A stretch of 64,000 nucleotides of DNA, taken from positions 62,001 to 126,000 of the IMG/VR virus record IMGVR_UViG_3300028920_000029. One strand, 5' to 3'. The DNA is from a virus. The notes below the pieces were generated by a model. That model saw only the letters and a list, made by a program, of their open reading frames with translations, did no database searches and was not told the DNA's origin. Within the stretch, counting starts at the first letter, position 1. The number at the start of each line of letters is the position of its first letter. Positions 9,831 to 27,348 of the stretch are shown in pieces. The translations under genes were made by a program, and so were the position numbers.

Positions 9831-12800
9831 ATGGCAACAAACTATATAGTTCAAAGCCCAAGAGTACTGCTGTTTAAGAACGGAAACAGAGTCGACATAG
9901 GATTAAGTAACAAGGACGCAACCGATAAGAATAGTTTCTTAGATAATATAAAACTGGAGTTAGATGAACATAGCTCTGGTAGATTAGAAAACTTTAACAT
10001 AAATGCCAATCTTGATACCGAACCAAATACTATGACACTAACCATAGCTATACCAATCCCAGAAGGAATTTATAGTGAAGGGTCTAATAGCTTTGCAGAT
10101 TCAAGATTTGTTGACTTTAAATCTCCTAACGTTTCGTGGAAACCTATGGATCATATAGAGCTATATGTTTCTGTATCTCCTGAGGTTGAGGAATTCTATA
10201 GGTTATTTGCTGGAGTAGTTACTGAAGTAAAGACAGACTTTAAAGGCTATGAGATGATGATAAGTTTATCATGCAAAGATATGTTCTATTGGTTAAGTAA
10301 GGCAAGAATAAACCCCAGGTGGTCAGCTACCGAAGCAGTGTTACGTGCTGGTAAAGTTGATAGCGACCAGCTTAAGAACATAGCATACAATACAAAATAT
10401 GTTGGGTACAGCTTTAAACAAATTATAGAAGCTATACTTTACAACGCTGCTAAAGATGGTAAGGTGGAAGACGAAACACAGTTTGTTGCGTTAGGTGAGA
10501 TAGATTTTGCTTCATGGATGCAACTAGCAGGAAGAGAAAGTCTTATAGGTGACGTCATAAAGGACGACCTGCTCGATCAGCAAGAGTATTATAGGCGTGC
10601 AGAGAAAAAGTATTTAGAAGAAGCCAGAAAGAATAATGTAAAGATAAGACCTGTAGATGATAGACGAATAAAAATTGACAGGCAGGGTATATCTAAGGTT
10701 GTCCACCAGGGTAAGGAGGCAGTATTTAGGGGTGCCATAAGTAAGGCGCAGGTACTTCAGGCTGCGGCCAGCAACCAAATTAACAGAAGGTTTGTGGCAC
10801 AGTATTGGGATACTCAATTTTTAGAATTCATAAGAAAGAACTACGTGAGTTATGGTAGAGAGTATGACTGGCTTACTCTTCCATTTCCGTTTAGTAATGG
10901 GGGAAACATTAACTTTATTGAAGGTACGTACTCTACAAGGTTAGAGCTTTTAAAAGAACTTACTACACTAACTATGTTTGAGATATATCAGAGTACCCAG
11001 GGATGGGTGTTCGTTAAACCTCCTATGTATAACATGCCGCCGTTAACAACTATAGATGCGGTTGAGTTAGAATCAACTGACAGATCGCTAGATATTAATA
11101 ATGTACTGACTTCAGTGTCCACTGAAGGAGCATTAGTAGCAGGTACTGGTGATGACGGAGTAGATACTCTTAGCGCACAAATGAAGGCTGTTCAGGTAGA
11201 AACAAACTTTCCGTTTATTCAGGGTACATACACGTGCCTATTCCCTAAAAACTTTGACGCTTCTTTAACTGGGGCACAGCAAAAGAACGTTAAGGATATA
11301 GATAGGTTTTCATGGGGAGCAAACATAGACAGCTTGAGTCCCAATAAAGGTGACGGAACTGATGGTGTTGTACAGCTGAATGCTTTTGAAACGTTCGTAC
11401 GCGAGCTAAAGAGATTAGGTAAAGGTAACGACAAAGATAAAACTGTATCAGAGTTAAGTGAAATATCTACAAACATTAAAGGTCAAGTTAGTTTAGTAGA
11501 CGTAAAGACTACAATCTCAACAGGTAAGGAAACTTCTTCTGGCTCAGAAAAGGAAGAGTATCTTATGTCTAAAGGATCACAACAGGTAGACTTTGCTAAA
11601 GTGGCGCAACTCCTAACGTTTGAATTGCTACGAAAGAATCTAACCAGGGATGTGTTAAATAGAGTATTAACTAACGAAGACACATACCTTATATTTTTTC
11701 AAGACTTAAGAGCCGCCGCAACGTCTTTTCTTAATAACGCCACTATGTCTGTTAGCGGTGACTTAGGTACCCATAATTCTAAACTATACGCCAGGAATGT
11801 ACTATCCTATATTACAGATCTTCAGTCAAGGTATGTAAACTTTATACAGGCTGCGGCTGCAGAACAAAACCTAGGAAAGGTAGTTGAGCAGGATATCTTA
11901 AATGGGTCTGGAAACTTTAAAGGTTTGTATGATCGTATGGCAGATATATTTTCTGGCTCCGTAGATACAACTGGAAGTATACTGTATGACCCAACTAATA
12001 TATCATTGTCAGGCGCACTAAGTACTACGGAGAGAAACACGTTACTGGATGATCCTGAAGGTAAGGACTTTTCTATTTATAAGTTTATTGCTGAAGCCAC
12101 GGGAAGTTTTTATAGTCGTAGATCTTTATTACGTGACAAGGACGGAAACCTAGTAAAGACTATAAATTATAAGCAACTTAAGTCTGAATTACAGAAAAGG
12201 AAATTGGCCGCTAATACAATTCCTATTGATAACAAGCCAAGTATTGTTGCGTCGGCTACGTGTACGTACAAACTGGATGATAGATTGAAGACAGTAGGAG
12301 ACTACAATGTTATGCAGCACGGGTTTAACAGCACCAAGATAACTAATAGAATGATAAGGACGCAGGAACAAACTACTGCGTTTGCTAAATATTTTATGTA
12401 TATAAATAACGCGTCCCTAGAAAAAACCAAGATGGTATTGAAAACATTAAGACCTGATGTAGTTTTAGGGTTTCCAATACTAAATAACTTGGACATGAAT
12501 GTTTATTATGTTAATGATATAAATTTCTCATTAACCGCTGGCAATGATTTTACCACAAACATTACAGGTATTGCCAGGCGCAGACCAGTATGGATAAACT
12601 CAGATGTTCCAGAGGGAAATCAAATATTTAACAACCCAGAATTAAAAGCTAAGGCGTTAATAAACCCTAAAGGTAACCCAGAATATTCTGATATACTTAA
12701 GTATGAATCAGAAGTAGCGGCTGAAATATCTGGTACTAATAAGAGTTCTGGAAAGTATAAACTATTGGGTTGGGAATACTACGGCCCAGACGAGTCAGAT

Positions 12801-13880: not shown

Positions 13881-14782
13881 TGGCTGATATGAGAGCACGA
13901 CTACAAGGAGCCAAGAACAATTCTTGGATGACATCAGCGATATACCCCACGATAGGAGTAATAGATACTATTAATACTAACAACAACTCCGCAACTGTTA
14001 GGTCTACTAAGGGTGTTATAGAAAATGCTAGGCTTCCGTTGCCATACTATTCTACAGGTACTGGTATATTCTATACTCCAGTTAAGGGAGACTGTTGTAT
14101 GGTATCATATGAATCATCTGGTAAGCCGTTCATTACAGCGTTTTACCCTTTAAGGCCTGTGGATGAAAGCTCGGGAGTTAATAGGTTGTACCCTCCAGAG
14201 CATACATTAAAGATAAAGACTAAGGCTGGCGACGTAATAAACATGTCTGATAGTGAAGACGACGCCAGCATATCTATTAAGAGCCCGAAGGAAGTAGGTG
14301 TTAGGGTTAGGGATGAGAGTGACGCGGATAACGTAACTACTGTAGGTACCATGCTTTTGACTGATGATTCTAACGCTACAACATACTCCATTAGTGTAGG
14401 TAGAACAACAGTAGGAGCAATAAATGTTACACATAACGAGGAAGATAAAACGACTACTTTGTTCCTACAAGTAGGTAACCATACGTTAACTATGGAAGAT
14501 ATCGACGGAACTGGGAGCTTTAATTTGACTATAGGAGATTCAACTGTTATAATAGATAGTGGAGATATAAAACTAGACGCGGGAACCAATAACGTCGAAG
14601 TAAGCGGAGCAAGTATCAACCTCAATTCTACAGGGCTTGGGGGTAACGTAGTTACTATGCCCGCACTTAGACGTATATTAACACAGGGTAGCCTTAGCGG
14701 CGACGTAGCAAAGACTAACTTTTTAGCGGCGATAAGTGCTGCGGAACAGGAAGTTAACTCTGCTCCAGCAGTTAATATATAG
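13880..14782 (+). CDS. central spike / baseplate puncturing protein (gp5/gpV-like)
   Basis: 300 residues. Residues 20-95 resemble the OB-fold of gpV/gp5 spikes: IGVIDTINTNNNSATVRSTK, then PLPYYSTGTGIFYTPVKGD and VSYESSGKPFITAFYPL. From about 110 onward short alternating strands with repeated T-x-x-V-G and D-x-x-D patterns suggest a trimeric beta-helix. There is no lysozyme insertion as in T4 gp5. The gene overlaps the hub stop (TAATGG), consistent with coupled synthesis of partners. Confidence 0.8.
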   Translation: MADMRARLQGAKNNSWMTSAIYPTIGVIDTINTNNNSATVRSTKGVIENARLPLPYYSTGTGIFYTPVKGDCCMVSYESSGKPFITAFYPLRPVDESSGVNRLYPPEHTLKIKTKAGDVINMSDSEDDASISIKSPKEVGVRVRDESDADNVTTVGTMLLTDDSNATTYSISVGRTTVGAINVTHNEEDKTTTLFLQVGNHTLTMEDIDGTGSFNLTIGDSTVIIDSGDIKLDAGTNNVEVSGASINLNSTGLGGNVVTMPALRRILTQGSLSGDVAKTNFLAAISAAEQEVNSAPAVNI

Positions 14783-14792
14783 GAGGACATTG

Positions 14793-15758
14793 ATGAGCTT
14801 TGATCTCGATTACGTAATGGTAGATTGCGACCACAGGATACATGACATACTTATACAAGAAGCCGTAAGTCCAGAGATATTTGTGGCTGATGGTGCGTCA
14901 GTATGTGGTAGCTCGTTATGTGGTTCAACTGTTGATACCGTAGGTCAGGCATCCTATGCTACCTCTAATTTGTTTGGGACCAAAGGAACTTTTACTAAGC
15001 TTGGTAACGGTAACACCCAAGCTGTAATCGATATAGATATACAGCCAGCGTCTAACATAAGACTATTTGTAAGGAAGCCTGGGGAGTACCAAAGGTATGA
15101 AGTATTTCCTACTGGGTATACAGAGAGTCTTATCAACGCAGTTTATGGTGATGGACTTGTGTACGGTAATTTTATATATGACGCTCCTTCTCTTTATGAG
15201 GATGTTACCGAAAACACAGAGACACTTTGGGAAATGGATTATAGAAATAGTCAGCTAACTATATATAGATATGATAATATGTTTGACTGGTATATAGATT
15301 ACAACGTAGGGCTAACAGATTGTCCTTTCTGTAAGGGATCTGGAGTAGAGAATGATCTGGTTGTAAACAACATAGGAAGAATGTCCCTGGCTGTAGATAC
15401 GGACAAGCTGGTACAAACCGTAATGAAAGCCGTACTTACCGAGAAAGGAAAGAATCCATACAATCCTTCGTATGGTACTATGATAAAATCTTTGATAGGT
15501 CAGAAGTTTATTATGTCTGGGTTCTTATTAAGGCAGGAAATTATGGATCAGCTGGAGCAAATTAAGAAATTACAAAATGCAGTTATGCGAGCAGCTCCAG
15601 ATTTCTATTCACCATATGAGGTATTATATGATATAGTCGGAGCGCAGATCCTTCCGACGTCCGACCCGCGCCAGATAGATTTAAAGCTTGTGCTTAAGTC
15701 TCTGGCACTAGATAGGGTTGGAACAAAAACTATAAAGATATCTGCTGTAGGAGGTTAG
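14793..15758 (+). CDS. baseplate wedge protein, gp25-like domain with Zn knuckle
   Basis: 321 residues from the ATG behind TAGGAGGACATTG; an earlier in-frame ATG lies inside the spike gene and lacks a site. The C-terminal half carries the gp25/gpW signature (VMKAVLTEKGKNPYNPSYGT, then SLIGQK). An N-terminal 200-residue beta domain precedes it, and CPFCKG at about 175 gives half of a zinc knuckle, with CGSSLCGS near residue 35 as possible partner. gp25 joins wedge to sheath. The N-terminal extension is unusual. Confidence 0.8.
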   Translation: MSFDLDYVMVDCDHRIHDILIQEAVSPEIFVADGASVCGSSLCGSTVDTVGQASYATSNLFGTKGTFTKLGNGNTQAVIDIDIQPASNIRLFVRKPGEYQRYEVFPTGYTESLINAVYGDGLVYGNFIYDAPSLYEDVTENTETLWEMDYRNSQLTIYRYDNMFDWYIDYNVGLTDCPFCKGSGVENDLVVNNIGRMSLAVDTDKLVQTVMKAVLTEKGKNPYNPSYGTMIKSLIGQKFIMSGFLLRQEIMDQLEQIKKLQNAVMRAAPDFYSPYEVLYDIVGAQILPTSDPRQIDLKLVLKSLALDRVGTKTIKISAVGG

Positions 15759-15760
15759 TA

Positions 15761-17533
15761 ATGCCGATACTTAATACTAAGACAAAGGCTCAGCTAATAG
15801 AAGAGATAATCAATTTTATACGTAGTAGGTTTAGGAACATAGATATGTCTCCTGGCCAGGTAGCCAGAGATCTTCTGGTTGAAGCACCAGCAGAGTTTAT
15901 GTATGACAACTACGTACTGGTTAACTTCTTGAACGCTGCCATCAATCTTAACAACTTAGAAAGTTATATTCTTAATGAGGACCTTAGGGTTGAACTAGCT
16001 AATTTGTTAAGCGTTTCCATTTCTGATGTTGATAATATGATAACTGAGGTTTTAGTTTTGCACGGGGAGAACTATGGTATAATAAGAAAGGAAGCTACTA
16101 AGGCTTCTGGTACCTTAAGCTTTACTACGACAACACGTCCAACATCAGCAACGTCTATAGCTTCTGGAACAATATGTCAGATACCAGAATCAAACCTGAC
16201 GTTTAGTACTACTGCTGAAATAACAATACCAGCGAACCCAACGGCAGCATACTTTAACTTCGACAATAATGTGTGGGAGTTTAAGGTTCTCGCTTCTAGC
16301 GGCGGTGGTGGTTCAGTATACAACGTACCTCCGCACACAGTAACGGCTGTCCAGCCAGGACAAAGTGTAAGCTTTAACGTAACAAACTATAATTCTTTTA
16401 CGGGTGGTACAGACGTGGAGAGCAATGCATCACTCATCACAAGAATAAAGGAAGCGTTGGCAGGTAACTTCCACGGAACTGCAAGCGCAATACTTAGTAC
16501 AGTATTATCATATCCTTTTATAGATGCAGCAGAGTTAGCTTACCTACCCACAGATCCGTCAAAGGTTAGAGAGGGGTTAAGTCAGATAGATGTTTTTGTT
16601 AAGTCTGATGCTACTAACAGGACTACAGATACCGAATCTTCGTACGCGACTAATCCTATAGTATTGGGTAATACGTACGCTACGAGCGTATACTCAGTAC
16701 TAATATCTACTAACAGTTATACTATCTCGTCAGTATTTTATGATTTAGAGATTGGTGACTTAGGTACATCCTACGTTAGATTCTCTGACATATCAGAAAG
16801 TATAACAGCTACAAGGAGTGACAGTCTAGGTTCTGGAGAAGAGTACATATCTTTAAGTGGAGGAGATACACTGCAACTTATAAACTCTGGAGTAGAGATA
16901 GACTTTCCAGACCCATCTGCAGGTAATCCTATTAGTACTGATGGAAGGATAACAGTAACCCTTTATGATTCGGATGGTACCTCTACAGACGATACAGCTA
17001 ATTGGAGTTATACAGATAGTCCGTCTACAATAGAGAGATCATCTGCAGTTGCTTCAACTACAGTTAGGATTGCGGTTGGTGTAACTCCAGCTACTGGAGA
17101 CGCCGTAGATATAGATTACTTATATAACCAAGCTATAGTTGATGTAGTAAATTATTTAAACAGTGACGCCGTTGTATTTATGGGACAGGATATTCAGCTG
17201 TTTCCAGCCGAACAGTCATCTATCTATATAGATATGAGGGTACAGATAGAAACATCCTATAGCTCAGAAACTAAACGCTCCGAGATTACTACAGCAGTTA
17301 CTGAGTTTATTACTGGGTTAGGACTTGGATCTTCAATAAACAAATCAGATATACTTGATATAGTATTAGACATAGCGGGTGTAGTGGATGTAGACTTAGG
17401 TAACATGACACTTGGTATAGGTACTGAGGATAGCCCACCAGAAGTATCTGGTGATTTAACGCTTGATACAGACCAGTATCCTATAATGGGGTATTTAAAT
17501 TTAACATTAACGAACGCTAATATAAAAAACTGA
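15761..17533 (+). CDS. baseplate J-like wedge protein (gp6/gp47 family)
   Basis: 590 residues. The N-terminal helix (KAQLIEEIINFIRSRFRNI...SPGQVARDLLVEA), the SFTGGTDVESNASLITRIK motif and the NFHGTASAI segment are hallmarks of the baseplate J family. These proteins form the wedge core and iris. A central Thr/Ser-rich insertion (about 280-450) is longer than usual. It follows the gp25-like gene, as in P2-type phages. The SD is GTAGGAGGTTAGT. Confidence 0.9.
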   Translation: MPILNTKTKAQLIEEIINFIRSRFRNIDMSPGQVARDLLVEAPAEFMYDNYVLVNFLNAAINLNNLESYILNEDLRVELANLLSVSISDVDNMITEVLVLHGENYGIIRKEATKASGTLSFTTTTRPTSATSIASGTICQIPESNLTFSTTAEITIPANPTAAYFNFDNNVWEFKVLASSGGGGSVYNVPPHTVTAVQPGQSVSFNVTNYNSFTGGTDVESNASLITRIKEALAGNFHGTASAILSTVLSYPFIDAAELAYLPTDPSKVREGLSQIDVFVKSDATNRTTDTESSYATNPIVLGNTYATSVYSVLISTNSYTISSVFYDLEIGDLGTSYVRFSDISESITATRSDSLGSGEEYISLSGGDTLQLINSGVEIDFPDPSAGNPISTDGRITVTLYDSDGTSTDDTANWSYTDSPSTIERSSAVASTTVRIAVGVTPATGDAVDIDYLYNQAIVDVVNYLNSDAVVFMGQDIQLFPAEQSSIYIDMRVQIETSYSSETKRSEITTAVTEFITGLGLGSSINKSDILDIVLDIAGVVDVDLGNMTLGIGTEDSPPEVSGDLTLDTDQYPIMGYLNLTLTNANIKN

Positions 17534-17542
17534 GGTGGATAA

Positions 17543-19381
17543 ATGGCAGTAAGTCTGGGTACGGACAGGAAGATACCAGATTATCTTCTATCTAGAATAG
17601 ATGGAAGTACAAGAGATGTTATTTATAAGGCCGTAGAAGAGTGGGATAACATTGAAATACACGATAAGGTTATAGATATACTTAATGACCTATTTGTTTT
17701 AACGGCTAGTGATGATGGGCTTAAGATATGGGAAGCCTTTTATCGTAAGAAACCTTACTCTATGCCGCCTACTGAGTGGAGACAGCTAGTATATCTACTT
17801 AACACCACAGTTATCAACGGCCCCACGGTGTCAAATATTGAGGCTTTACTAGGGTTTTTTGATAGCGGAGCTACGTTAACTCTTGTAGAATCTTCGGTAA
17901 TATATAGTGAGGATACTGACTTTACTGACCTATCCTCAGAGACTACCATAGTCAGTGAGCAGTCTACTATATCATCAGACGCAACTGGCACGTGGGATGA
18001 TGAGTTCTTTTTACTTAGGGCTGATACAAAGATATATAAGATATCAGATTTCCAAGAGAGAATAGATGGGTATGCACAACTGTTGTTCGACCTATTAAAC
18101 AAGGTGCTTCCAGCTAATGTCCGTGTGGTTATAGAGGAGTTCGAGAGTCAGTTATCTTCTACTGATATAACTTCCGATACGGAGGCTTCTACTCCTCCTT
18201 CTGCTATATCAGATAACTATATGGTAGCTACGTTTCAGCTTCCGTGGTTATCTAGGGGCGGACTACCAATCTTTGCTTTGTATGATTGGGAAGCTCAAAC
18301 CTATATACAGGAGACTATTATAACTGTACCATCTGCTTCGGGCATGTCTTTACTCCAGGCAGACCTAATAAACAACAACGCTTTGCTTGCTTTATGGTAC
18401 AAAAAACTTGATGGTAAGTTAAGGATTTATTTGTATAATACATCTACAGGTTATCATGAAATACTTATGGATAACGTGCACGTGTATTCTATGAACGCAG
18501 CAGCACATGCTTGGTTAAAGCACGGGCTTGTACTACATGATGCGGCTACAGAAACTGTGAGAGTAGCGTTGTATAAACCTAAGAGTGTGTATGGTTCTGA
18601 CGGAACCGTAACAGCAGTAAAGAGTGGAGAGTATACTGGAGTTACATCACAGCTTAACTCAGGAGAAACCATTAAAGCGCTGGCTCCTAGGAAGTGGAAC
18701 CAGGGAACACAGGCTGAAACCGTAATGTTTGTTACGTCTTCGTCAAGAGTATTCAGTGCTACTCCATGGCCAGACCAGGTTAGCAGTCCCGCACCAACAT
18801 TAAAGTTTAATAATACTGATAGTACTACGGCGTTGTCGACACTAATAAACAGAGTACCTAAGTTCTTTGCACCTACGGATGATTGTTTGGTAGCAGTAAA
18901 TCCTTACTTTGGAAGCTACCCTAATAGAAATAGGATAGTTGTATTGTCTGAAACTGCTGGTACTATAAACCCAGCGCTGACGGTTGACGGGTTAGCTAAA
19001 GGTATAGATTTGCCGTTAGTATTTATGAAGGATCGAATGATAATACAGAGTGGTTACAGGAGCCCAGATGATATCCATGCTCCTAAGGTACCTTACAAGT
19101 CCAGCATACCATTTACATCGTTTGGTACAAAGATAGTAACATTGGATAAAGATTACTACTATCCAATTGAAGTAGCCAACTCATCTAAGAGTTTTGCTGT
19201 GGCAAATGGTACAGCGTCAGGACTTAGAGTTGCAATACATAGAAACTTTTTAACAGAGGTACTTAGAAAAGAAGGGGCCGACACTACTGACATGGATACC
19301 TATTCAGTAGAGACACGGCTGTTACCTCCACTGCTGCAGAGTAATGGAGCTGGTAACGTACTTAAAATATACAGAGTGTAA
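17543..19381 (+). CDS. tail protein I-like N-terminus with large C-terminal receptor/fibre-like domain
   Basis: 612 residues. The first 220 residues are helical and resemble the wedge protein that follows baseplate J, including a segment ending PANVRVVIEEFESQL. From residue 225 the sequence turns into repeated four-stranded beta segments (for example LPWLSRGGLPIFALYDWEAQ) that could form a propeller or fibre domain. It may attach to the baseplate and carry host recognition. The N-terminal assignment depends partly on gene order. Confidence 0.6.
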   Translation: MAVSLGTDRKIPDYLLSRIDGSTRDVIYKAVEEWDNIEIHDKVIDILNDLFVLTASDDGLKIWEAFYRKKPYSMPPTEWRQLVYLLNTTVINGPTVSNIEALLGFFDSGATLTLVESSVIYSEDTDFTDLSSETTIVSEQSTISSDATGTWDDEFFLLRADTKIYKISDFQERIDGYAQLLFDLLNKVLPANVRVVIEEFESQLSSTDITSDTEASTPPSAISDNYMVATFQLPWLSRGGLPIFALYDWEAQTYIQETIITVPSASGMSLLQADLINNNALLALWYKKLDGKLRIYLYNTSTGYHEILMDNVHVYSMNAAAHAWLKHGLVLHDAATETVRVALYKPKSVYGSDGTVTAVKSGEYTGVTSQLNSGETIKALAPRKWNQGTQAETVMFVTSSSRVFSATPWPDQVSSPAPTLKFNNTDSTTALSTLINRVPKFFAPTDDCLVAVNPYFGSYPNRNRIVVLSETAGTINPALTVDGLAKGIDLPLVFMKDRMIIQSGYRSPDDIHAPKVPYKSSIPFTSFGTKIVTLDKDYYYPIEVANSSKSFAVANGTASGLRVAIHRNFLTEVLRKEGADTTDMDTYSVETRLLPPLLQSNGAGNVLKIYRV

Positions 19382-19567: not shown

Positions 19568-22500
19568 ATGCTTAGGTTGTTTAGAGGATTGTTTAAGAAA
19601 GCTCAGAGTAATGAAATACTGACAAAGCTTAAGGAGTTATCAGGTAAGTCTGATGGTATGCTGCCGTTAAAACTTATGGCTATTGTTATATCTAACGCGC
19701 AAAAGTCTTATGGTTTGAAGAACCCTCCAGCAGTTAACATAGGAATTATAGAGACCAGTGCTAACGTTGCGGGTGTTGGTGAAGAGTACAAGACTTTTGT
19801 AGAGGAACCTCTGAAAGATATTATATTAAAGATGAAAGACCCAACCAACTTAACGGACGAAAGCTATACTGAGTTTGCAGATACTATAGATAAGGTGTCC
19901 GAAGATTTTACTAATGTGTGGAAAGAGGTTAGAGAGTCAGCACCTGAAGCGGGCCCGACAAAGAAAAAGAAAAGCCCACCCAAAGAAAAGTCTGTTGTTC
20001 CAGATGACTTAATAAAAATACTCATAACCAAGGAATCTCTTGGTAAGCTGCAAGATGAATCTGTGGACGCTATGTACGAAGCCGTTCAGAATCTTCCTGC
20101 AGTTAAGACTATGTTGGCTAAAGTTAAGTCAGAAGGAGACTCCATTGATAAGTTATATAATACTTTTCAGCTAGCTGGTAAGGCAATGATAGATAACTTC
20201 TTTAAAGATTCTGCAGCTACATCACTGGCGTCGATTATAGGAGATAACAGAGATGAACTAACTGCTGAAATTAAAGAAGGTATGACTGGTGACAACGCCA
20301 AGTTTAGGACTGGAAGTCCAGAAATTATAAGGGAAATCACAAGGCCTTTGCTTGCGTCGTTGGTTGCAGAGTATTGTTTAGGTTCGTTCGACCAGCAGAT
20401 TAACACGCTTATAAATCCTTCTGGAGCTGAGGAAGGCGTAGATGATGAACGTATAACAGCCATTACTTCAGAGAATTCTGACCAATATATTACACAAATA
20501 CTTGACAGAGAACAGCAAAGTGTACGTGCGTTAAAGGAACAGCTTGCTATGTCTGAGGAATCGGATGCCCCCACGTTTTACTTTGCGTCTGCAGATAGAA
20601 TAATATTTACCACTGAGGGCCGCAAACTACTCTTAAGTATTTGGAAAGAAAGGATGTACGGAAGTACTGGTGAGGTAATAGTAGGTTTGTTCCAAAGTAG
20701 AGTGAGAAGAATACAGGAAGAAAGTACTGGTGAAGCACCTCAGGAAACCTCAGAAGAACAGTCAGGTTTAGAGAAGGGACTATTCGATAGGTTAGCTAAG
20801 AGTATAAGTATCATAAATGTTAAGCATGACTACGTAGCTCTCATTCCCTCGGAAGTAAAGATGGTTGAGTTCTTAGTTGGGTTAGGGTTAGGGGACTATA
20901 ATGTTCCTAAGTTTTCTATTGTAGCCTATAAAGAAGGTACTGGTGAGAGTCACTTTAAAGATATCGGTGTGCACAACGCTATAGTATTCTTAGGTTCTAA
21001 TGGAATACTGCCTAGAGTTGTTCCAGTAACTGCTTCAGCTAAGTGGGAGTACACAGTTAATGCTCCTATCAACTTGAGTATGGCGGCTAAGAGTAGTGCA
21101 GAACAGGGGTGGTTTTTTCTCCTACTGCAGTTTATAATGAACTCAAATTCAAAAGGATTGCATTGGCTACAGCAGGCTATAGCTTTGTGGGATGAAAGGT
21201 TTGAAGCCTACAGAGATGTTCCTGCTTCTAAGATGTTAGATATGGCAGACAAAACTCTAGGTACTGCCAAAGACATAATTAGTAGTGGTGGAGCTAAGGG
21301 AGGTCCTGGTGCTCCAGTGGGAGGAGATGTACCTCTGCCTACCCAGAAAGGTGTGCCGTTTGAGCCTTCACCGTTTACTGGTGAGGCAAGGTTTACCCTT
21401 AGGTCTTTAAAGAGACTAGCTGCGGAGGCCAAAGAAAAAACTAGAAACAAATACTATACCGCAGATGATATAGTTAGAGCCGTATGTACGGAGTTAAAGG
21501 CTAGTAAGAACAAAGCTATAGACGTAGATATAAGTTGGACGTACGATGATGGCAACATAGATTCTTTTGTGTTGTTCTCTGTCACATTACATAATGTTAA
21601 GTTTAATACTCCTCTACAGTATAAGTTCGACTTGGGAGATGATGACGTAAAGAAAGAGCTTCAAAACCCAAAGAAGTTATTATCTTTAGGAAGCTTAGAA
21701 AAGCATAGGATAGGTAACACGGATATGTTTCTTATAGAGAACTCAACCAGCTACGCTAGCAGAAGTATGACAAGTTACGCGTCAGTGTTGGTTCCGTTTA
21801 CTAAAGTATTTAAGCAGGTAGATGCGGAACTAGATCCTAGGGCGTTCATACCTAGACACGAAACTGAAGTAGTAAAGCTAAGTGCTGGGGCAGAAGTATA
21901 TGATAGAACCGACAAAGCTGTGGAGAAAGAAGAAACAGACAAGGTAGTATCCAGCGGTAGAGATTTAATGTCGCTGATAAACAATACATTAAACACCAGA
22001 CTTATAGTTCCTGGGTTTGATAAGTCGCTAAACAAAACGGTTAAGGACCTTAAAGAGTCTGACAACCTTGATCAGCTTGCTGGTAGTTTGGAGATGGAAC
22101 TAGTGTACGCTCCGCTTGTGCTACTTAAGAACAAGTTAGCCAAGAACTTACGCAACACTACACCAGAAATGCAGGCGAAGGTTACGGCGTATACTGTTCA
22201 GCTTCGTAAGTTTATAACTGAAGTAAGTGCGTTGGCTACTAAAACTACTGCGTGTATGTTTGACTACGACAAGTATAGTGATAAAGATATCAAAGCGCAG
22301 CACGATAGATATATAGGTAATACCTTTAACGAAGCTTTGGATGCTGTATCTGGACTTCAGTCCTCTTCGGCATCTATCATATCAGACACAGTAAATACTG
22401 ACCAGGTTACTTACACATATACTGGGACAGCAGAGAAAGATTCAACCGCGGTAAAGCAATCCAACTTAGTGAATAAAATACAAAGGAGTTCAGACTTCTT

Positions 22501-24253
22501 TAGAAATGCGTATGAGGTTAGCCAGGTTGAACTGGATAACCTACAAGCTAAGATACTATTGTCATTTAACAACGATTTAGTTGATGGCGTAACAAAATTA
22601 AAAAAGAAAATCATTGGTCCAGCACTTACTCCGCAGGATGTAGTGAGAAGTAAGAAGAAGTTTATTGAACTAAACAAGGAAGTGGAGAAGGCTAAGGAGT
22701 TAGTATACTCTACAGATGGTTTACCTATAGAAGCTTTAAAAGCTAAGTACGCTAGTCTAGCTAAGATGATAGGTACTATGGTTACTGTAGATCCAACAAC
22801 TGGAGAGACTACTAACCCAGCTGTCAAAGCCCTTAACAACCTAAACAACATAGCATCAAAAGATACTTCCAAAGTACAGGCTGCCTTCTTTGTTATGGAG
22901 CTTGACGATCTTGCTGAGAGGCTTAATGATTTAGAATCAGACGCGCCAATAGAAGCATACGATAAAGAGTTTAAGAGAATATATAACAGTATGAAGAATA
23001 CTACTGGTACTCCTCCGAAAGAATTAGTTGTTGATCAAAGTCAGCAGCGTTCAATAGAAGCACTACAAGGTATAGGAGATTCAATGGATGGCCTCATCTC
23101 AGCCACACAGTTTTATAATCCAGAAGGAATAAAGAGAACTCTAAACTACGCAGACAAAACTCTGGACATGAGCGCTGACATGGCAAAGCCTATAATAAAT
23201 GTTCCTAGGATACCAACTGCTGGTAGTAAAGATGTGTCTGAAGCTATGCAGAAGTATGCTACAGCTATGGAGTTTGCTAAACGAATACCTATGAAGGGAG
23301 AAATAATAGATACCGTTAAGGATCTGATAGCTCACGGTGTAGGTATAATAGTAAACGCTGTAGATGAAAGTGTAAATGAACCAGCGCTGCCAACTATGGA
23401 TAGGAGTAGAAAGGTGCAAGATAAGATGACATCATCAGATGTGTGGGCTAAGAACATAGCTGCCAAAGGTATATCAACCTGGGTAACTGAGATGAAAAAC
23501 TACTTACGTGAGAACATAGACGACATAGAGGACACTGTTGGACCTGAAGATATGGAAGCGTTTAAGTCTGTACTGTTGCTGAACTCAAACGTTCTTAAAC
23601 TATTAACTGACTTGGAGTTAGGTAATGCTACCGTATCCGACGTCGTACATAATAAAGATATAAACGACTTACTTGATTTGATATGGAATGAGAATACCAG
23701 GACCTCTGAGGTAGGTGAACAACAACATTCCGACTGGCGTAAGTATGTTAAGGAAACTGCCAAAGGAATAGAAGATAATAGAAAACGTCAAACTGAAGAG
23801 AAGGAAAATAGGATAGAAATGTTCAAACAATATAGGATGGAACAGTTAAAGAAGAAGTTTGCAGGTACTGGTATGGATACTGAGAGGTTCTTTAACGCTA
23901 CGTTATCTGATGCTATGTATAGGGAGCACGCATTTATGCTGTCGAAGGCGGACAAGTTTGGTATATCTTTAGACAAGTCGCTTCCTACAGAGCAGCTACA
24001 TAAGAATTATGCTACTGTTAAGGAGTTACTAGATAAGGAACCGTCGTACCAGACAAAGTTTGATATAGAAAAGGTTGTTCGTTCTTGGGTTAAAGATAAT
24101 CCAGGATTACCTTATAACGAAGCCGTATCAATGTTACAAAACATTTACGGGGTTGAACGGGGGTTCAGCCAAGAGCAATTTGCTAGGGTTAAAGATCCTA
24201 ATTGGTCCGTAAAGTATTTGGATTCTATGAAGGACCATCCTTATGCAAAGTAA
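19568..24253 (+). CDS. giant 1561-residue virion-operon protein, unknown
   Basis: Almost entirely predicted helix, with long charged coiled-coil runs (about 1230-1480) and a Gly/Pro-rich hinge near 575-600 (GGAKGGPGAPVGGDVPLP). It starts with a short basic amphipathic segment like the 673-residue protein of the same operon. No polymerase, protease or peptidoglycan motif is visible. A single uninterrupted ORF behind AAGGAGGTAAGT shows it is maintained. It may be an ejected inner-virion or long fibre-like protein; function unknown. Confidence 0.6.
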   Translation: MLRLFRGLFKKAQSNEILTKLKELSGKSDGMLPLKLMAIVISNAQKSYGLKNPPAVNIGIIETSANVAGVGEEYKTFVEEPLKDIILKMKDPTNLTDESYTEFADTIDKVSEDFTNVWKEVRESAPEAGPTKKKKSPPKEKSVVPDDLIKILITKESLGKLQDESVDAMYEAVQNLPAVKTMLAKVKSEGDSIDKLYNTFQLAGKAMIDNFFKDSAATSLASIIGDNRDELTAEIKEGMTGDNAKFRTGSPEIIREITRPLLASLVAEYCLGSFDQQINTLINPSGAEEGVDDERITAITSENSDQYITQILDREQQSVRALKEQLAMSEESDAPTFYFASADRIIFTTEGRKLLLSIWKERMYGSTGEVIVGLFQSRVRRIQEESTGEAPQETSEEQSGLEKGLFDRLAKSISIINVKHDYVALIPSEVKMVEFLVGLGLGDYNVPKFSIVAYKEGTGESHFKDIGVHNAIVFLGSNGILPRVVPVTASAKWEYTVNAPINLSMAAKSSAEQGWFFLLLQFIMNSNSKGLHWLQQAIALWDERFEAYRDVPASKMLDMADKTLGTAKDIISSGGAKGGPGAPVGGDVPLPTQKGVPFEPSPFTGEARFTLRSLKRLAAEAKEKTRNKYYTADDIVRAVCTELKASKNKAIDVDISWTYDDGNIDSFVLFSVTLHNVKFNTPLQYKFDLGDDDVKKELQNPKKLLSLGSLEKHRIGNTDMFLIENSTSYASRSMTSYASVLVPFTKVFKQVDAELDPRAFIPRHETEVVKLSAGAEVYDRTDKAVEKEETDKVVSSGRDLMSLINNTLNTRLIVPGFDKSLNKTVKDLKESDNLDQLAGSLEMELVYAPLVLLKNKLAKNLRNTTPEMQAKVTAYTVQLRKFITEVSALATKTTACMFDYDKYSDKDIKAQHDRYIGNTFNEALDAVSGLQSSSASIISDTVNTDQVTYTYTGTAEKDSTAVKQSNLVNKIQRSSDFFRNAYEVSQVELDNLQAKILLSFNNDLVDGVTKLKKKIIGPALTPQDVVRSKKKFIELNKEVEKAKELVYSTDGLPIEALKAKYASLAKMIGTMVTVDPTTGETTNPAVKALNNLNNIASKDTSKVQAAFFVMELDDLAERLNDLESDAPIEAYDKEFKRIYNSMKNTTGTPPKELVVDQSQQRSIEALQGIGDSMDGLISATQFYNPEGIKRTLNYADKTLDMSADMAKPIINVPRIPTAGSKDVSEAMQKYATAMEFAKRIPMKGEIIDTVKDLIAHGVGIIVNAVDESVNEPALPTMDRSRKVQDKMTSSDVWAKNIAAKGISTWVTEMKNYLRENIDDIEDTVGPEDMEAFKSVLLLNSNVLKLLTDLELGNATVSDVVHNKDINDLLDLIWNENTRTSEVGEQQHSDWRKYVKETAKGIEDNRKRQTEEKENRIEMFKQYRMEQLKKKFAGTGMDTERFFNATLSDAMYREHAFMLSKADKFGISLDKSLPTEQLHKNYATVKELLDKEPSYQTKFDIEKVVRSWVKDNPGLPYNEAVSMLQNIYGVERGFSQEQFARVKDPNWSVKYLDSMKDHPYAK

Positions 24254-24274: not shown

Positions 24275-24754
24275 ATGACTGAAGAACAGAAAGACGCTAA
24301 AGATATAGTAACTCTTCAGGAGTACATAGATACTCTAGTTGAGTTAAGGGTTACGTTGGGAACCATTAGTGAACTAATGGATAAGATATCTGTATCCGAG
24401 GAGAAACAGGCTGAGTCTATGAACGCTCTGGCTTCTGAAATGAAGTCCATCAAAGATAAGATAGCTAATATAGAACTTAAGATACTGTTAGCTAACGCCA
24501 ACGGAATAAAGAAACCCAACGGTAATGGTAATGGTAATGGTAATGGAAATAGTAAGAACGGAAAGAATGGTAAGAAAATCACAGAGTTGGATGAGGTTAA
24601 TAGGAAAATGATGTATGAGCTGGTCGGTAAGTTCTTTGTGAATAACTGGAAGTTCTTTCTTGTCATTGTTGTATTAGCTATAATAGGATTGACTGCGCTA
24701 AACATAGACATCCCATCTACATTAGGGTTGAAGCACGGACCTCCAACTCCTTAG
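24275..24754 (+). CDS. coiled-coil protein with NG-repeat linker and C-terminal transmembrane helix
   Basis: 159 residues. Residues 5-75 form a heptad-like coiled coil. Residues 86-104 are an Asn-Gly repeat linker encoded by a GGTAAT repeat. Residues 124-143 are one hydrophobic helix (FFLVIVVLAIIGLTALNI). It is the last plus-strand gene. Membrane anchoring with an extended coiled coil suggests a lysis accessory or superinfection protein, but no holin signature is present. Its stop overlaps the convergent gene's stop. Confidence 0.6.
   Translation: MTEEQKDAKDIVTLQEYIDTLVELRVTLGTISELMDKISVSEEKQAESMNALASEMKSIKDKIANIELKILLANANGIKKPNGNGNGNGNGNSKNGKNGKKITELDEVNRKMMYELVGKFFVNNWKFFLVIVVLAIIGLTALNIDIPSTLGLKHGPPTP
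24521..24550 (+). repeat. in-frame GGTAAT microsatellite
   Basis: Four exact GGTAAT hexamers followed by GGAAAT encode the Asn-Gly linker of the membrane-anchored protein. Copy number is likely to vary by slippage without breaking frame. Confidence 0.85.
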
Positions 24755-25215
24755 TCTTCAGTAGTTGGATCCATTACAGGTATAACTAGCTCTGAGATAT
24801 ACATTGGATTGAGTAGTGACTGAGTTAGTACCAGTTTGTAATCGTCTTTAGCGGCTGGATTCTGCTTGAGGTTTCCCTTATAGCGCTTAACATAGTATCG
24901 TTTACCAGATTTCTCGTATATGTTTATGACCTTATTCTTAATATTTGATACCAGAAACGTAGTAAACTTAGTATTTTTTGTACTGTCATACTTTACTATG
25001 GACGTAAAGATTACTGGCATCAACTCCTGTCTATAGTCATCTTTATCCCAGCAAGCTATGTACGCCTTACAGTATTTTCTTATACAGCTATCAACTATAG
25101 GTAGTATCGTCTTAACGAACTTATGGAACTCTAAGTTGTTTACTACGATACGCTTAGTAGTATCCAACATTATATCAAACGTACTGCTTCCAATGGCTAT
25201 GCGCTTTACTTGCAT
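24751..25215 (-). CDS. sigma-70 region 2-like protein
   Basis: 154 residues. Residues 57-101 (DKDDYRQELMPVIF, then SIVKYDSTKNTKFTTFL and SNIKNKVINIYEK) follow the sigma-70 region 2 pattern: an acidic-Leu-x-Q-E helix, a hydrophobic-x-K(Y/F)D turn and a xFxTFxxxxIxNxI helix. Region 2 binds core RNA polymerase and the -10 element. No region 4 HTH is evident; the tail is short and basic. It could be a divergent late-gene sigma or an ECF-like fragment. It is the distal gene of the minus operon, converging on the virion genes. Confidence 0.6.
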   Translation of the reverse strand: MQVKRIAIGSSTFDIMLDTTKRIVVNNLEFHKFVKTILPIVDSCIRKYCKAYIACWDKDDYRQELMPVIFTSIVKYDSTKNTKFTTFLVSNIKNKVINIYEKSGKRYYVKRYKGNLKQNPAAKDDYKLVLTQSLLNPMYISELVIPVMDPTTED

Positions 25216-25241
25216 ATGGTCTCCTAGTTGTTAAGTATTAA

Positions 25242-25998: not shown

Positions 25999-26288
25999 TG
26001 GTCTATCCTCCCTTCGTATTCTTTGTATTCTAATAAGTAACTCTTGTTATTACAAGAAGAACATGTAGCTATCAATTGTTCTGGTCGCTCCTCTCCATAC
26101 ACATATCCCCAATCGTTGTGCCAGCAAGTATTACATCTGTACAACCACTTGTATATGTTAGTCTTACCAGGAACAGTTTGTGTTCCTAATGGATAAACGT
26201 TTCGTTCTTTACTGTACGGAGGCTCCCCGAATACCTTACGAACTTTATGGCTAAACGATTCGCAGGCTTCTATGTCGTCCCAGCTCAC
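25995..26288 (-). CDS. zinc-ribbon protein
   Basis: Residues LYRCNTCWHNDW and IATCSSCNNKSY give a CxxC...CxxC zinc ribbon in the C-terminal half. The chosen GTG start overlaps the upstream stop by 4 bp (GTGA). An upstream in-frame GTG at 26330 would add 14 residues inside the neighbouring gene, and neither start has a convincing SD. Zinc ribbons usually bind nucleic acid or protein. No closer match seen. Confidence 0.55.
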   Translation of the reverse strand: MSWDDIEACESFSHKVRKVFGEPPYSKERNVYPLGTQTVPGKTNIYKWLYRCNTCWHNDWGYVYGEERPEQLIATCSSCNNKSYLLEYKEYEGRIDQ

Positions 26289-26692
26289 GGCAAACTGCTG
26301 ATGGCTTTGCGTTGCTTGGCTTTCCACCACTCCCGTTTGTAGGCTTTAATCTTTTCTTTGTTCTTTGTATAGTAATCATTTTGATACTTGGCTATCTTCT
26401 CTTTGTTCTTTTTCGTGTAACGCTTGTACCATTTAGTAGCTTGGTCCTTGTTCTTTTCATAGTACTCCCTGCGGTTCTTTCTACCTTCTGGTGTTCTTCT
26501 CTTAGCCAAGAGTTCTTCTTTGTGAGCCTCATAATACTTTTTTCTGTAGCCCGTCACTTTATCTTTATTGTTGCGAGCGTACTTCTTTGCGTAGTCATTA
26601 AGTTTCTCTTTGTTCTTTTCGTAGTACTTTTTCTTAGCCTGCCTGAAATTATCTTTGTGACTTTCGTAGTATTTTTTGTCGTAAGTGGTCAT
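26285..26692 (-). CDS. Lys/Tyr/Glu-rich repeat protein
   Basis: 135 residues built almost entirely of imperfect 10-13 residue repeats of the form KKYYEKNKEK (for example YDKKYYESHKDN, KKYYEKNKEKL, RKKYYEAHKEE, NDYYTKNKEK). Strongly basic and predicted as one long helix. Similar repeats occur in phage and bacterial proteins, sometimes fused to HNH domains, but no nuclease motif is present here. A nucleic-acid-binding rod is plausible. Start follows GGAGGTATGTG and shares a base with the preceding stop. Confidence 0.6.
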   Translation of the reverse strand: MTTYDKKYYESHKDNFRQAKKKYYEKNKEKLNDYAKKYARNNKDKVTGYRKKYYEAHKEELLAKRRTPEGRKNRREYYEKNKDQATKWYKRYTKKNKEKIAKYQNDYYTKNKEKIKAYKREWWKAKQRKAISSLP

Positions 26693-27348
26693 CACATACC
26701 TCCTATTCCAAGCTGAATAATAAAATAGATGGCAAGTGCTGCGAGTAACGCCACACCCAGCTTTAGTATATAAGGTACGGCTACTATCCCAAACCTAATA
26801 ACATTTACTCTGAACTCAACGGTTCTCATTCTTTTATTAACTTCATCGTAAGTCTTTACCCGCTTGTTGTATTCGGACTTTCCCTTCTTAAGTATTCCCT
26901 TTAAGGCCTTAACAAGTAGTTTATCCTTTGAAGTTTTTACAAGGTTACTCATCTCTTTATGTGCTCCGTAAGCGAGTACTGCAAAGGAAGCTGAGTTATT
27001 CATCGCTCCGATATACATCTGCTCTAACTCACTAAAGTTGCAAGCCTTAATGAGTGTCCTGACTGCCTCCCTATTTAGTTTGTCCACTACCGAGTACTTG
27101 CATATGTCTGCCGCCACGTTCAAAGCTATAAGGAGCGCCAGAGACCTCTGGTTAAACGTTAAACCAGGACCGTGGCTAAGAGATTTTAGTCTCTTTAGTC
27201 CCTTACCTATCTTTCCTATACTCATATCAAATATAGCCTCGTCAAGCCCTATGTTCTTAAAGTGGAGTGCGTCTTCATTTCCAGCTGCAAAGAGCTGCTC
27301 GTTAATCTTTTCCTTAACAATTTTCTGTTCTTTACTAGTTGTTAACAT
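26692..27348 (-). CDS. helical protein with C-terminal transmembrane helix
   Basis: 218 residues from the ATG behind GGAGGTGAGGCAG. Mostly helical; residues 190-215 are hydrophobic (VPYILKLGVALLAALAIYFIIQLG) and would anchor it in the membrane with the bulk in the cytoplasm. A central helix pair (SLALLIALNVAADI and NSASFAVLAYGAH) is also rather hydrophobic. No family recognised. Confidence 0.6.
   Translation of the reverse strand: MLTTSKEQKIVKEKINEQLFAAGNEDALHFKNIGLDEAIFDMSIGKIGKGLKRLKSLSHGPGLTFNQRSLALLIALNVAADICKYSVVDKLNREAVRTLIKACNFSELEQMYIGAMNNSASFAVLAYGAHKEMSNLVKTSKDKLLVKALKGILKKGKSEYNKRVKTYDEVNKRMRTVEFRVNVIRFGIVAVPYILKLGVALLAALAIYFIIQLGIGGM

Follow-up and report, generated by a model that had tools for sequence, protein, structure and literature searches.

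Sigma-70 regions 2 and 4 encoded by two distant genes of one phage: a possible split sigma factor

Two genes of one virus record (G000), separated by 76 kb and lying on different arms and strands, were found to encode sigma-70 region 2 and sigma-70 region 4, respectively, each without the other; both genes and their neighbourhoods were kept in a second lineage. The two products are proposed as the two parts of a split sigma factor, which would redirect the host polymerase, a reading to which, judging from sequence, we assign a probability of about 0.6. Their partnership is suggested by co-occurrence in two lineages, and the polymerase used would be that of the host. From the position of the genes a role in late transcription also appears plausible, and this is held with less confidence than the split factor itself. 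The region-2 gene lies in the window, by which is meant the whole stretch of 64,000 nucleotides analysed, corresponding to positions 62001-126000 of the 173,362-base record. Coordinates of the features are listed in Table 1.

Table 1. Features of the two sigma-like genes and of the virion run (window positions, except for the region-4 gene, which is given in positions of the record)
Feature	Position	Strand	Remarks
Region-2 half of proposed split sigma factor	24751..25215	-	ATG start, 154 aa; homologue in G005
Sigma-70 region 2 match, residues 45-103	24907..25083	-	Pfam PF04542
D59-D60-x-x-Q63-E64	25024..25041	-	Four residues invariant between two phages (alignment)
Predicted N-terminal beta-hairpin, residues 2-18	25162..25212	-	Ahead of region 2; from the model; matching segment in G005 homologue
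Ribosome-binding site AGGAG	25221..25225	-	5 nt before ATG; read by eye
Region-4 half of proposed split sigma factor	G000:C1:10585-10995	+	136 aa (P0004); outside the window, beside RecA and TOPRIM genes
Final gene of plus-strand virion run, convergent	24275..24754	+	4-nt overlap with region-2 gene stop
1561-aa protein beside region-2 gene	19568..24253	+	Place held in G005 by 1293-aa protein
Baseplate protein	14736-15758	+	Profile match, virion run
Baseplate protein	15761-17533	+	Profile match, virion run
Tail protein	17543-19381	+	Profile match, virion run

The region-2 protein and its relatives

A preliminary description of the window had called a divergent sigma region 2-like protein, lacking region 4, at the end of a minus-strand operon and convergent with the virion genes. 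The coordinates, start codon and length of this open reading frame proved exact, and the gene closes the minus-strand run, with its stop overlapping the final plus-strand virion gene. Matching of the product to sigma profiles, which had been proposed as a check, succeeded in both Pfam and PHROGs. PF04542 (Sigma70_r2) matched with E 2.5e-5 and 24.4 bits, the curated cut-off being 24 bits, and PHROG 351, annotated as RNA polymerase sigma factor, matched residues 31-112 with E 1.4e-7. Region 4 was absent from the Pfam matches even at E <= 10, and at that threshold no convincing match other than Sigma70_r2 was obtained. The gene, with its region-4-less product, is confirmed as an observation. The residues noted earlier were found as D59-D60-Y-R-Q63-E64-L, K75-Y76-D77, F84-T-T-F, N91 and N94, the D-x-x-Q-E pattern among them being that of the part of sigma region 2.2 that binds core. 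Residues 30-102 were also matched by PHROG 3741 (E 0.001), a functionally uncharacterised phage family that may itself represent region 2.

No relative emerged when IMG/VR was pattern-scanned with just the window protein or with its 1561-aa neighbour. A scan of the same database with the capsid protein (stretch L004) detected 9 loci with 58-74% identity and was the route to record G005 (149,961 bases), the only capsid-related record of the nine longer than 54 kb and the only one in which a homologue of the window protein was found (E 1.8e-7). Among isolates, the closest capsids were those of Bacillus phage G (37.6%), followed by Virus Rctr197k and mycobacterial and gordonial phages. Searching 50,697 phage records by tblastn with the window protein gave a single weak match (E 8e-3), which was rejected as a probable bacterial contaminant because its locus appears to carry a sigma-like ORF and housekeeping genes of bacterial aspect. 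Matches in vB_PpuM-Lauda (E 0.006 and 0.03), located within 824- and 933-residue frames, were set aside as weak.

The window protein and the G005 homologue share 26% identity (pairwise BLASTP E 7e-10), with D59, D60, Q63, E64, Y76, D77, F84 and N94 common to both, and the alignment extends to an N-terminal stretch outside region 2. By itself, the G005 homologue matched region 2 with 25.6 bits, also over the cut-off of 24. Its gene, on the minus strand, occupies the same end of the virion run as in the window and converges with the gene for the 1293-aa protein, which shows weak similarity to the 1561-aa protein of the window (E 1e-6 over about 190 aa). A short contig, G010, bears the same region-2 gene and was counted together with G005. 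In G005, the long frame of the region-2 gene is overlapped at its start by a 395-aa ORF (L015:1898-3085) that, read by eye, resembles a TnpB-type transposon protein.

The structure of the window protein was predicted by AlphaFold from a two-row alignment, and the best of five models was used (mean pLDDT 75.2, with about 82-93 over residues 1-40 and 61-100); pLDDT of the other four ranged from 63.8 down to 41.7. The model consists of an N-terminal hairpin and helices at residues 27-48, 58-75 and 84-102, so that the region 2 helices, the presence of which had been named as a structural check, are there in the predicted fold. In a Foldseek search of the PDB, none of the 122 matches found at E <= 10 reached E <= 0.001, but the best 50 of the 122 were all titled sigma factors or RNA polymerase complexes. 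With VIA-align, sigma domain 2 chains came at the top (best 8i24_F, Z 7.2, rmsd 3.2, 92 aligned), and 49 of the 50 matches listed were titled sigma factor or RNA polymerase, the exception being a designed epitope scaffold. The Z values are below 8, under the level that the tool deems safe alone; the weight of the fold comparison lies in the uniformity of the match list. Structures of T4 gp55 were not among the VIA-align matches listed, which excludes nothing.

The small margins over the Pfam cut-off (0.4 bits for the window protein and 1.6 bits for the G005 homologue), together with the low Z values and weak Foldseek E-values, are what would be seen if a three-helix protein resembled region 2 by coincidence. 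This explanation is very improbable: the homologue in G005 matches region 2 independently, two profile libraries agree, the fold-comparison list is almost uniformly sigma, and the protein is linked to the sigma-like gp300 of phage G (see below). Taken together, the two proteins, the two libraries and the fold make the call firmer than the margins alone, and the window protein very probably carries a genuine sigma region 2.

A separate region-4 gene

Searching the whole record with Sigma70_r4 (PF04545) gave five matches, of which one, at 10744-10887 on the plus strand, was over the cut-off and four were dropped as below it; the record has exactly one region-2 match. The protein encoded at the retained site, P0004, scored 31.6 bits with PF08281 (Sigma70_r4_2; curated cut-off 25.7 bits) and 25.7 bits with PF04545 (curated cut-off 24.1 bits), and Pfam detected no region 2 in it at E <= 1. 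In a profile comparison with the region-4 half, the best matches were solved sigma region 4 domains, with SigW first (E 0.005). Region 4 alone is a less specific sign, since helix-turn-helix models of this region also match archaeal control genomes. PHROG 351 matched the record at two places, its positions 506-588 falling on the window gene and 627-731 on the region-4 gene; in G005 this family had no match at E <= 1.

The region-4 protein was present in two of the 14 records searched (G005 and G002), and a partial copy was found in a third contig, L055. The G005 copy is 43% identical to P0004 (E 2e-35) and was over both cut-offs, with 26.8 bits for PF08281 and 29.7 bits for PF04545. RecA, TOPRIM and the region-4 half follow in the same order in G000, G005 and L055, RecA and TOPRIM being identified by profile in the record of the window and by resemblance in the other two. 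Since G002, G005 and L055 are close to one another (L055 88%), the independent lineages number two, and the records with both halves likewise represent two independent lineages. The region-4 half gave no matches in phages, and none of the 202 pattern matches that it gave, used with its alignment, in genomes of bacteria and archaea proved to be a relative. A model of its G005 version was poor (mean pLDDT 50.9) and unfit for structure search. A free-standing protein in a 197-aa frame (L042:1195-1788) of LR745208.1, a 485-kb metagenomic phage whose capsid protein is related, matches sigma region 4 but not region 2.

The two genes could be independent of each other, with the region-2 protein an appropriator that alters or blocks the host RNA polymerase and the region-4 protein a DNA-binding regulator of the replication genes. 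Their distance and placement on opposite arms and strands would fit this, as would the location of the region-4 gene amid replication genes. However, the two proteins match non-overlapping parts of a single PHROG sigma family (351), and every region-2 record with enough sequence, namely G000 and G005, also has the region-4 half. We regard independence as unlikely. A split factor predicts the pattern observed, that is, one region-2 gene and one region-4 gene, mutually exclusive, in two lineages.

As a split sigma factor, the two proteins might work as follows. The region-2 half would dock on the clamp helices of the host RNA polymerase and melt a -10-like element, and the region-4 half would hold the beta flap and a -35-like element. 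Jointly, they would displace the host sigma and direct transcription of the late (virion) genes. No RNA polymerase beta domain was found by one profile search of the record, which is perhaps incomplete, and this result fits use of the host polymerase. It is conceivable, and suggested here only tentatively, that the arrangement acts as an AND gate in which late transcription begins only once both genome arms have been expressed; the region-4 half would be made with the replication genes of one arm, and the region-2 half from the opposite arm, at its far end.

Comparison with known sigma factors

A two-protein sigma factor is described for Bacillus subtilis, in which SigO and RsoA carry sigma-4 and sigma-2, respectively, both being required, as a natural AND gate (PMC8103513, PMC10028694). 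The domain order given in PMC10141391 differs from that in these two papers, which are followed here. Judged by these domain descriptions, SigO-RsoA has the same two-protein sigma-2/sigma-4 plan as that proposed for the phage. The rsoA gene is described as sitting with sigO in the operon yvrI-yvrHa, so that these are host genes of one neighbourhood, whereas here the genes belong to a phage and the halves are far apart.

The preliminary description had likened the window protein to T4 gp55, which is described as a protein with homology to sigma region 2 and a C-terminal clamp-binding motif, with gp33 placed on the beta flap (PMC2988020, PMC7892883). From these accounts, gp55/gp33/gp45 has the same general plan, a late sigma with region 2 only plus a second protein at the beta flap. 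Accordingly, the window protein might act alone as a gp55-like late sigma, assisted by a clamp and a coactivator resembling gp33, in which case the region-4 gene would be an unrelated regulator. Its chain without region 4, its similar size (154 aa versus 185 aa for gp55) and the convergence of its gene with the virion genes agree with this, and gp55 itself scores just 13.1 bits with Sigma70_r2, so that divergence is not unusual. By this score, the window protein resembles ordinary sigma factors more than gp55 does.

Nevertheless, kinship with gp55 found no support in sequence comparison (BLASTP E 1.7; hhalign probability 1%), and a match of T4 to PHROG 351 was left out as it is not at gene 55. 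The last residues of the window protein are unlike the gp55 tail, no gp55-like clamp-binding C terminus being visible when compared by eye with the gp55 motif only. Neither a bacterial- nor a T4-type sliding clamp was matched in the perhaps incomplete record by one search each with PF02768 and PF02916, which a divergent clamp could escape. In addition, a conserved region-4 protein exists in the record. Of the earlier description, region 2 without region 4 stands; a relationship to gp55 or a clear gp55-type mechanism is not supported, and the comparison is valid as an analogy only. We consider a solo gp55-like sigma quite unlikely and prefer a split sigma factor as the model because of the separate, conserved region-4 gene. 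A true sigma region 4 is present in the proposed partner, whereas the accounts of gp33 cited above (PMC2988020, PMC7892883) do not describe one.

The closest region-2 segment found in an isolated phage was that of Bacillus phage G gp300 (pairwise E 2e-6, hhalign 94%). This protein differs in being one chain of 275 aa that spans positions 477-712 of PHROG 351, i.e. both parts unsplit, and fission of such a chain is therefore possible as an origin of the halves; the region-4 halves showed no significant similarity to gp300. The late sigma of phage SPO1, gp34, is described as requiring a small accessory protein, gp33 (PMC3601020), but its single chain combines region 2 (23.8 bits) with a weak region 4 (13.4 bits, which is under the cut-off), and gene 34 adjoins gene 33, unlike the halves here. 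The SPO1 gene 33 profile (Phage_Gene33) had no match in one search of the record, which is perhaps incomplete. phiKZ gp68 and AR9 gp226 are described as sigma-like promoter subunits of the phage non-virion RNA polymerase with equivalents of regions 2 and 4 (PMC7618050); by that account they are single chains within a phage polymerase, of which the beta domain was not found here.

In the literature covered, mostly open access, no phage sigma whose regions 2 and 4 are encoded by different genes was recognised. If the reading is correct, the pair would be a naturally occurring phage analogue of the two-subunit sigma factor known from bacteria and would add a third route to late commitment, besides gp55-gp33-clamp of T4 and the single-chain phage sigmas. 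It would also bear on the origin of gp55-like factors, as a case in which region 4 is detached yet still sigma-like, and would offer a testable two-component switch.

Late promoter search and other genes

An unbiased motif search of 11 gaps gave scores within those of shuffled sequences at all three widths: 34.3 versus a shuffle maximum of 35.6 at width 12, 47.8 versus 48.2 at 16, and 57.5 versus 61.9 at 20. The T4-type late promoter TATAAATA did not occur in the late gaps examined, and sigma-70-like promoters in two stretches were at shuffle level (49 versus a mean of 51.6, and 53 versus 50.0). ACTTATA was found directly after a hairpin in 7 of 63 cases, compared with 73 of 1500 positions taken at random and 31 of 637 cases for ten control 7-mers; as the pattern was picked after looking, the enrichment is suggestive only.

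The decoration/capsid gene pair is preceded by an inverted repeat (AAAGnC...GnCTTT), a TATA-like run and a ribosome-binding site (L004:8850-8891). By eye, the inverted-repeat block recurs with changed bases ahead of the corresponding gene in most relatives that were compared (L006-L013). This block may serve as a promoter or operator, or form an RNA hairpin.

Several other genes were observed. The product of 24275-24754 contains a GN repeat run and a hydrophobic, membrane-like segment, and the ORF at 26285-26695 on the minus strand consists mostly of repeats resembling KKYYEKNKEK. The protein encoded at 42105-42788 matches Pfam Gene product 88 strongly (98 bits) and also falls in PHROG 1392, a family of unknown function. 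Outside the window, the phage encodes a GroEL-like chaperonin (L003:14740-16374, positions 160740-162374 of the record; E 1e-162).
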